Part shown: positions 15,541 to 17,382 of the stretch, in pieces
How the letters are laid out: each line of letters begins with the position of its first letter
How positions within the stretch are numbered: the stretch's first letter is position 1
NCBI GenBank assembly: GCA_034670405.1
Contig: JAXDDX010000072.1
Span: forward strand, 1,860,001-1,924,000
Origin: Hoplostethus atlanticus
Taxonomy: Eukaryota > Chordata > Actinopteri > Trachichthyiformes > Trachichthyidae
Length of the DNA stretch: 64,000 nucleotides
Direction: 5' to 3'
The notes under the pieces: generated by a model
The model's database searches: none
What the model saw: only the letters and a program-made list of their open reading frames with translations
Told to the model about the DNA's origin: nothing
Translations under genes and position numbers: made by a program

Positions 15541-15613
15541 CTTCAGGTCGCGGTGGACCACGCCCATCTGGTGGCAATGGAGTACGGCCTCTAGGATCTG
15601 CTGAATGCAATGA
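15541..15613 (-). CDS. camk2d: camk2d exon 6b, alpha/beta-type catalytic loop (alternative)
   Basis: This 73-bp exon encodes HCIQQIL then [17 protein letters not shown] (residues about 115-138). It covers the end of helix alpha-E and the catalytic loop with HRD (catalytic Asp136). The wording [12 protein letters not shown] is that of the CaMKII alpha and beta isoforms, unlike the delta-type copy 1.7 kb upstream. The donor GTGAGTAG is strong. The acceptor TGTTTGCATGCAG has a short pyrimidine tract interrupted by TGCATG. It enters in phase 2 and leaves in phase 0, as exon 6a does. No stop, frameshift or lost key residue is seen, so it looks functional. Confidence 0.93.
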
Positions 15614-17309
15614 CTGCATGCAAACACCAGGGGAGCCGTGGGTTAGTGACAAGCTACCACTCACTCTCTGTTGCTTAGAGCGCACATTGAGACTCGGGGA
15701 GCTGCTGGCACTGTGGCAACCAACCCACCCAGCCGCCAAAATGGGCACCAGTCTGAACTTTCCTCGCTGGTGTGCTTAAAATAATTTGATGCCATGGTGA
15801 CCAATTGAGGTTGCCCGTGACAGAGCCAAAAAAACACTAGCTGCAATAGTCATCGTCCCAAACACGTATATTCCCCCACAACCCCCTACCCGAGTCTCAA
15901 AACAGAAGTGGTGTTAGCCCCCGGCCGACTGGAAGCTGGACCCTGGGAGGGCGAGGAGGGAGATGAGGTGGGGGTGAGGAGACAGTGAGGCAGAGGAGGG
16001 TGCGGTGTACATCATTTGCCATCAAGGTCTCAAGAAGTCTGCAGGTTTTCATTTCAACAAAAACGCCACAGCAGCCGATTTCACCGCTTGGTTCCCCCTC
16101 TCTGGTTGAAGGTGTGTTAATCGGTGCTGTAGCACAGCGCTGCCACGATAACAAATACTACTTCAATTGAATTTGTTTTAGAATCCAAACGTATTCCACA
16201 AACTGAAATTCCCTTTGAACGTCACCTCCAGACGGCATACACGTCTGGATTACGTGTGGAACGGAGCATTTAAAAGACTAAGAAAAAGAAGGAGGATTGA
16301 AATAGATCTTGACAGTGGATGGCAGCAGTGTGAGTCAAAACAGCTTCCAACAGTCCACCACATCTTGTGCTGGATCCCAGTCTACCTAAACCGGAGGACA
16401 AAACTGGTCCTGGGAGCAAAATATGGAACTAATTCGCTCACAGGGCCGATAAAGACGGACCAGCCAACATCAAAACCTCTGTGGAAAAGTCACTACGCTG
16501 TCCAAGTCCAATGTGGTAACAAGTAAAGAAGCAAAGCATCTGATTTTCATAAGAAACCGTTCTACTCAAGTTCTTGACATATTAATTTTGTTATTTTCTC
16601 TCATTATTGATGTTAATGTTTTGATGCTTTTGGGTAAATTAAAAGCGCAGCGTTTGTTCTGTGACATTGCTTGATGTTTTTTCTTGTTCACCATGGTATC
16701 GTAGTAGTATCGGATTTTTATTTACTCAACTTAATGTTGAGTAAAATCTCGGTCTCCAAAATCTTGGTATCGTGACAACGCTAGTGCAGCAGTTGGAATG
16801 CAAACCTGCAAACTCCTGGCCTTCGATGGTTGAGACCCACTGGTTTCTATCTGGACCACAAGGGGGGGGGGGGGGGACTTAAAACCACCCTTCCGTGCAC
16901 AAGCCTCCTCTTCCTCCTCATCTTCCTCCTTTCTCGGGTCGCAGCCTCACAGCGGCTGTTTCAGAGCATGGTTTTGGAGAGATGCTACATGCACTTTGTG
17001 CCCTGCCATACAGGGAGGGGTGGGGGGGGGCAAGATGAAATCTACCACCTCCCCCTGGCAGTACCCTACCTACCGCCTCCTCTCCAGCCAACCTGCCCAC
17101 ATTGCCTTCTACTGGGTGGATTTCAGAAGAAGTCAGGTGGCAGTGGTGGGTGAGGGTGACTGGCAGAAAAGGGGGTGTGGTTTTGGAGGAAGTGGCATTC
17201 GGTGATTGGTTAATTGGTTGATTAATCAGGCAGTGGAGGAGCAGGGCAAGGTGCCGGAGGTGGGCAGGCCTGAGTCTTTTTGTTGTTGTTATTGCCATCA
17301 TTTACTAAC
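15614..17309 (-). other. camk2d intron between exons 6a and 6b
   Basis: A 1,696-bp intron separating the two exon 6 copies. It contains a G15 run (16862-16876) and GGGG-rich patches near 17015-17030. The 6b-proximal part shows no long pyrimidine tract on the transcribed strand. No third exon 6 copy was found. Confidence 0.7.
15617..15622 (-). promoter_or_regulatory. UGCAUG inside the exon 6b 3' splice site
   Basis: On the minus strand the acceptor reads TTTGCATGCAG. The Rbfox-type hexamer TGCATG ends three bases before the exon (positions -9 to -4). Rbfox binding upstream of, or over, an acceptor generally represses the exon. I infer that Rbfox could favour exon 6a. Confidence 0.45.
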
Positions 17310-17382
17310 CTTTAAGTCCCTGTGCACTATGCCATTTATGTGGCAATGATTTACACTTTCTAGAATCTGCTGTATGCAGTGA
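17310..17382 (-). CDS. camk2d: camk2d exon 6a, delta-type catalytic loop (alternative)
   Basis: This 73-bp exon encodes HCIQQIL then [17 protein letters not shown], nearly the mammalian delta wording (ESVNHCHLNGIV). It carries the same HRDLK catalytic loop (Asp136) as exon 6b and differs from it at five of 24 residues (123 S/A, 125 N/L, 129 I/Q, 130 N/M, 132 I/V). The two DNA sequences are about 70% identical (51 of 73). The acceptor has a long pyrimidine tract ending CTTTCTCCTCCACAG. The donor GTTAGTAA is weaker (T at +3). This is the exon expected in a delta gene. Confidence 0.95.

Follow-up and report, generated by a model that had tools for sequence, protein, structure and literature searches.

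Tandem alternative exons in the catalytic core of a camk2d-like gene of Hoplostethus atlanticus: a probable ancient splice choice sorted by exon loss among CaMKII paralogs

The window analysed here, a stretch of 64,000 nucleotides of Hoplostethus atlanticus (C72:1860001-1924000) from an assembly of 632.8 Mb in 1,161 contigs, carries a camk2d-like gene on its minus strand, which was located by alignment with a human CAMK2D protein sequence. Exons 3, 4, 5, 8 and 9 were 100% identical to this protein and exon 10 was 93% identical; the figures for exons 7 and 11 (73% and 63%) are due to alignments that extend into intron. The gene was assigned to camk2d by its variable residues, which over the kinase exons are nearest to those of human D. 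A single stretch of 25 residues of human CAMK2D matched the window twice, at 17384-17310 (96%) and at 15615-15541 (80%). Known RNA families gave no match in the window, and long CA/AC dinucleotide repeats of about 100-150 bp were seen at 36119-36270, 29712-29853 and 33724-33824. The exons concerned are as follows.

18553..18618, minus strand: camk2d exon 5, ending in ...SEADA + AG
17310..17382, minus strand: alternative exon 6a, delta-type, 73 nt, with splice sites, matching human CAMK2D at 24 of 25 residues
15541..15613, minus strand: alternative exon 6b, alpha/beta-type, 73 nt, with splice sites and signs of constraint, matching human CAMK2A and CAMK2B at 25 of 25 residues
12121..12223, minus strand: camk2d exon 7 (PENLLLASK...), which carries a premature stop if both or neither of the exons 6 are used

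Exons 6a and 6b lie next to each other, are homologous and agree in length and phase, each having its own acceptor (CCACAG/TCAC for 6a and GCATGCAG/TCAT for 6b, all AG) and its own donor (AAAG/gttagt for 6a and GAAG/gtgagt for 6b, both GT). An earlier note on this DNA had described two 73-bp exons, 1,696 bp apart and each with acceptor and donor, and had stated that both encode the same kinase segment ending in HRDLK. The coordinates, the intron of 1,696 nt and our reading of the exons confirmed this. The gene being on the minus strand, the copy called upstream in that note is 6a (17310-17382) and the one called downstream is 6b (15541-15613). Its counts of 51 of 73 bases and 19 of 24 residues common to both exons also hold, the latter becoming 20 of 25 (80%) with the split first codon. 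The five differing positions are 123, 125, 129, 130 and 132 in the numbering of human CAMK2D, and HRDLK (134-138) is the same in both. In structural terms we take the segment to run from the end of helix alpha-E through strand beta-6 into the first part of the catalytic loop. Exon 6b matched the solved human CAMK2B (3bhh) and CAMK2A (2vz6) at 25 of 25 residues with E of about 1e-11. A chance origin of 6b is excluded by this match together with the presence of the same ordered pair in two other genes. The corresponding segment of Drosophila CaMKII (5fg8), ESVNHCHQNGVV, shares 23 of 25 residues with 6a and 22 of 25 with 6b, as counted by hand, so the ancestral copy is not clearly indicated.

Exons 5 to 7 or 8 were joined in silico in all combinations of 6a and 6b. 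Exons 5 and 7 fit either copy in frame, both 5-6a-7 and 5-6b-7 being open. Inclusion of both copies (5-6a-6b-7) placed a stop in exon 7, 101 nt upstream of the 7/8 junction, and direct joining of 5 to 7 placed a stop in the same exon, 87 nt upstream of that junction. Since nonsense-mediated decay usually follows a 50-55-nt rule, mRNAs with double inclusion and with skipping should both be decayed. Because the frame is broken by using both or neither, only single inclusion can yield a kinase. Mutual exclusion therefore holds for usable mRNA at the least, and the splicing itself is presumably exclusive. Exons 6a and 6b very likely form a functional mutually exclusive pair.

The assembly was searched with both exon peptides; the best candidates only were scored, weaker matches being left out, and nine stretches were read. 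At least seven camk2 genes are present in this assembly. Their names rest on best matches, on variable residues and on a kinase tree calculated without exon 6. Another CaM-kinase-like gene (L048, C174) was excluded from the seven, which carry exon 6 as follows.

Window gene: delta-like, 6a and 6b
C7 gene: delta-like (second copy), 6a only
C77 and C2 genes: beta-like, 6a followed by 6b
C127 gene: alpha-like, 6b only
C44 and C65 genes: gamma-like, 6a only

The ordered pair 6a-6b is therefore found in three of the seven camk2 genes. A decayed second copy was sought in C127, C44, C65 and C7 by an ungapped search, compared with 20 single-base shuffles. The best ungapped matches covered 30-35 of 73 positions, none above the highest of the shuffles, and this candidate was rejected. 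Gaps of the assembly do not hide the missing copies either, as the seven genes are free of Ns from exon 5 to exon 7 and the sole run of Ns in the stretches read falls outside exons 5-7. As a separate observation, the alpha-like gene (L044, C127:518500-528400) carries at 3189-3861, downstream of the true exon 7, seven additional incomplete repeats of that exon's 3' end, which are about 90-160 bp apart and encode one peptide and near variants of it.

In a tree of the exons the four 6b exons clustered with a support of 98, apart from the 6a of their own genes. Exon 6b shares 62-63 of 73 bases with the 6b of other genes, against 51 of 73 between 6a and 6b within the window gene. It is quite likely that the 6a/6b pair was present before the beta/delta split. 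The simplest history would be one duplication before beta and delta parted, after which alpha lost 6a, and gamma and the second delta-like gene lost 6b. The kinase tree without exon 6, which contained human rows, lacked exons 3 and 11 of C65 and included exons 9-11 of C2, joined alpha with delta (63) and beta with gamma (65), both weakly, and it placed human D beside alpha (29), not with the fish delta genes. Should these two groups be correct, the pair would antedate the earliest division of the vertebrate family. Residues 281/282, which we compared with the relevant part of PMC8155201, are CM in alpha and MM in the other genes, a sequence pattern that suggests a branching other than that of the kinase tree.

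The four 6b peptides (window, C77, C2 and C127) are identical. Over the six pairs of 6b exons, 57 synonymous differences were counted against one nonsynonymous difference, the latter an artefact of the counting path since the peptides are identical; each pair has 8-11 synonymous differences in about 15 sites. The Ks values of 6b from the window gene to C77, C2 and C127 (1.28, 1.58 and 3.37) do not depart from the values spanned by exons 5 and 7. In the corresponding comparisons the synonymous share was 0.61, 0.66 and 0.74 in 6b, 0.82, 0.54 and 0.60 in exon 7, and 0.82, 0.80 and 0.90 in exon 5, that is, synonymous divergence of 6b is about that of exon 7 and somewhat below that of exon 5, as read from a short exon with few sites. 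Identity of the peptides despite diverged synonymous sites argues for protein-level constraint on 6b of the delta gene and against a recent copying event. Exon 6a shows more protein change than 6b, with 9-12 nonsynonymous against 5-7 synonymous differences between delta-like and beta-like genes. Within the types, 13 synonymous and 2 nonsynonymous differences separate the 6a exons of the delta-like pair (window and C7), 6 and 2 those of the gamma-like genes, and 3 and 4 those of the beta-like pair (C77 and C2). By these counts 6a, like 6b, is under constraint at the protein level, but to judge from its sequence it may be relaxed in one beta-like gene. The 6a of C77 (L040, 4666-4738), LDSVCYTHQHDIV, looks relaxed and has its donor inside a GT run. 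It was also observed that synonymous divergence of 6a is low in comparisons of the window, C77 and C2 genes (a total of 15 of 39 sites over the pairs, against 27 of 44.7 for 6b), perhaps through a constraint on splicing or through conversion. The proposal of the earlier note that the gene makes two kinase-domain versions is partly supported by these results: there is a tandem pair in the catalytic core, each copy can be joined in frame, and 6b is constrained among the paralogs of this genome.

The three 6b exons that have a 6a partner (window, C77 and C2) are preceded by a near-identical acceptor ending, TTTGCATGCAG, for which the features of the window are given below.

15614..15653, minus strand: last 40 nt of the intron before 6b, the final 25 nt of which match two beta-like genes at 20 and 22 positions
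15617..15622, minus strand: TGCATG, an RBFOX-type motif at -9 to -4 of 6b adjoining the terminal CAG, with a putative role in splicing
15642..15647, minus strand: ACTAAC, branch-point-like, shared with the two beta-like genes at 27-34 nt upstream of 6b, with a putative role

Among the three genes, the final 25 nt of the intron before 6b are identical at 20, 22 and 23 of 25 positions in the pairwise comparisons. Constitutive acceptor pairs of the same exon (n=109) had a mean of 10.2 of 25 (sd 3.8); two of them reached 20 or more, both at 22, and these are CT or GT dinucleotide repeats that were retained in the sample. None of 100,000 composition shuffles reached 18 of 23 in all three pairs. A junction word of 21 bases, GTTTGCATGCAGTCATTGCAT, occurs exactly three times in the assembly of 632.8 Mb, once at each of these exons, and its reversed control does not occur. 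Beyond 25 nt upstream of 6b, ungapped identity falls to chance (3-9 of 25). Other conserved elements were sought in the 6a-6b intron and rejected, as the shared matches were just 10-16 nt long with E of 1 or more. TGCATG is found at -9 in all three partnered 6b exons, being conserved among paralogs of this genome. In the final 40 nt it occurs in 5 of 49 camk2 acceptors (some of the exon 5 sites being mis-offset), namely the three 6b and two exon 7 acceptors in GT repeats. The lone 6b of camk2a (C127) has an ordinary pyrimidine-rich acceptor without TGCATG. In pyrimidine content the 6b acceptors rank 10, 12 and 16 from the lowest of the 49, and so are only moderately poor. The ACTAAC was likened by us to the branch-point consensus.

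The presence of two homologous exons in the delta gene could be explained otherwise than by an old pair. A young and independent duplication in the fish delta gene would leave exons that are adjacent and equal in length, as observed, but the lower identity between 6a and 6b of the one gene than among 6b exons across genes, together with the support of the 6b cluster, rules it out short of gene conversion, and we regard this origin as extremely improbable. It is unlikely that 6b came to the delta gene, together with its acceptor, from a camk2a or camk2b paralog through gene conversion or copying and not by descent. The identity of the 6b peptide to that of alpha and beta, as well as the match of the 25-nt acceptor to the beta-like genes, would be expected from such an event, but the synonymous divergence of 6b is about that of exon 7, if somewhat below that of exon 5, and ungapped intron identity is lost beyond these 25 nt. 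A recent conversion is ruled out by the synonymous divergence, and this divergence and the drop in identity, the sites being few, mean that any conversion was old. Still less probable is the use of 6b as a poison exon, included mainly along with 6a to shift the frame and thereby to lower delta levels by decay. The stop that 6a plus 6b puts in exon 7, 101 nt before the 7/8 junction, is what such a role needs. A poison exon, however, does not need a fixed protein, and 6b is without amino-acid change against three paralogs and against human alpha and beta.

As for the control of the choice, RBFOX bound upstream of an exon usually represses that exon, so at the 6b acceptor it would be inferred to favour 6a. 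A TGCATG downstream of 6a would likewise favour 6a, and such a motif was found within 300 nt downstream of 6a in one of the three genes with the pair. CaMKII beta and RBFOX are both brain-rich, and the human beta structures contain 6b. Simple repression would not account for this, save where the motif has disappeared in mammals. Of 521 short exons predicted to respond to RBFOX, for which TGCATG is the motif, 410 are enhanced and 111 repressed according to the relevant passage of PMC4317164, RBFOX being mainly an enhancer of such exons. Given the motif and its position, control of the 6a/6b choice by RBFOX appears to us an evenly balanced proposition. It is rather less probable, though a serious alternative, that TGCATG was kept at -9 for some other reason, such as another RNA-binding protein or a structural need, or that the choice of 6b is set elsewhere. 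Identity of a motif is not binding, and the downstream motifs are inconsistent; on the other hand, the motif is the known one for RBFOX and is absent where 6b has no rival exon. Separately, the gamma-like gene of C44 (L046) has seven copies of TGCATG in the roughly 3.1 kb that follow the beginning of its exon 6. An rbfox-dependent exon has been reported, in a published passage, for zebrafish camk2g1 and mouse Camk2g.

The best explanation, to which we give a probability of roughly 0.75, is an ancient tandem-duplicated mutually exclusive pair that was sorted by exon loss among the paralogs. The pair would have stood in the gene ancestral to delta and beta and been kept in both; alpha would have retained only 6b, and gamma and the second delta-like gene only 6a. 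The acceptor of 6b, where TGCATG adjoins the terminal CAG, would be the main point at which the choice is made. RBFOX bound there would hinder recognition of the acceptor and direct splicing to 6a, leaving 6b for settings with little RBFOX. By this choice the delta kinase could exchange five residues preceding the catalytic loop for their alpha and beta counterparts, with products of double inclusion and of skipping going to nonsense-mediated decay. The pair is probably the remnant of a splice switch that existed before the CaMKII gene family of vertebrates arose. We lean towards the view that the differing approaches to the catalytic loop in alpha and gamma are frozen halves of one splice switch, the gene before duplication having made both cores from one locus with an RBFOX-type acceptor element, as beta and delta would still do in this fish. 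Whether the kinases with 6a and with 6b differ measurably as enzymes is, in our estimate, an even chance.

CaMKII is among the most studied kinases. If camk2d and camk2b do exchange a core segment of alpha/beta type for one of delta/gamma type, differences ascribed to kinase isoforms may vary with tissue and species, and a construct containing a single exon 6 would miss part of the range of the enzyme. The pair offers a natural five-residue experiment on the segment that leads into the catalytic loop. It also illustrates how an ancestral splice choice can be divided among paralogs.

Exon pairs of this kind are already known, and so, probably, is the orthologous event in human. In the open-licence literature, supplements excluded, we did not find the beta pair, the pattern of loss among paralogs or the acceptor element, and the family-wide history and the acceptor element appear to be new within the literature searched. 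The earlier note had not included the alpha/beta type of 6b, the beta-like pairs, the half-losses, the break of frame or the reported human CAMK2D pair.

The JNK genes (MAPK8/9/10) have mutually exclusive homologous exons 6a/6b in the kinase domain, and the CaMKII pair is alike in kind but belongs to a different family and lies at a different position. A 2015 study by Abascal, Tress and others on the fate of exons after gene duplication may treat CAMK2. The statement of the earlier note that CaMKII splicing is usually described for the linker agrees with the relevant parts of PMC7991079 and PMC5882894; that splicing concerns the same genes but alters the linker, not the catalytic core. The 2021 review of CaMKII delta variants gives exons 13-17 and 20-22 as the variable regions in the part consulted (PMC7991079), and a passage of the 2018 study calls alternative splicing of exons for non-linker domains uncommon (PMC5882894). 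Four mutually exclusive clusters were counted in CAMK2D in an excerpt of PMC5740500. Closest to our case, human CAMK2D is among the genes with tandem-duplicated exon substitutions in the relevant passage of Martinez-Gomez et al. 2022 (PMC9741552), which cites the 2015 study, and the event was mapped there on the kinase structure PDB 6ayw (Fig. 2A), beside the predicted ATP site. It is like ours in the family member, in the homologous pair within the kinase domain and in the residues adjoining the predicted ATP site, whereas the passage gives no exon number or sequence, no beta genes, no losses among CAMK2 paralogs and no acceptor motif. The human event is likely to concern the same exon as 6a/6b, although the exon is unnamed in that passage; the kinase-domain and ATP-side location agree. 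According to section 12 of PMC9741552, one or the other copy was lost after gene duplication in the FYN relatives SRC, YES1, FGR and FRK and in CACNA1F and CACNA1S. These cases resemble the CaMKII family in that a tandem pair is kept in one gene and a single copy in its paralogs, but they are other genes, and the FYN pair differs in covering the SH2-kinase linker and the N-terminal part of the kinase domain.
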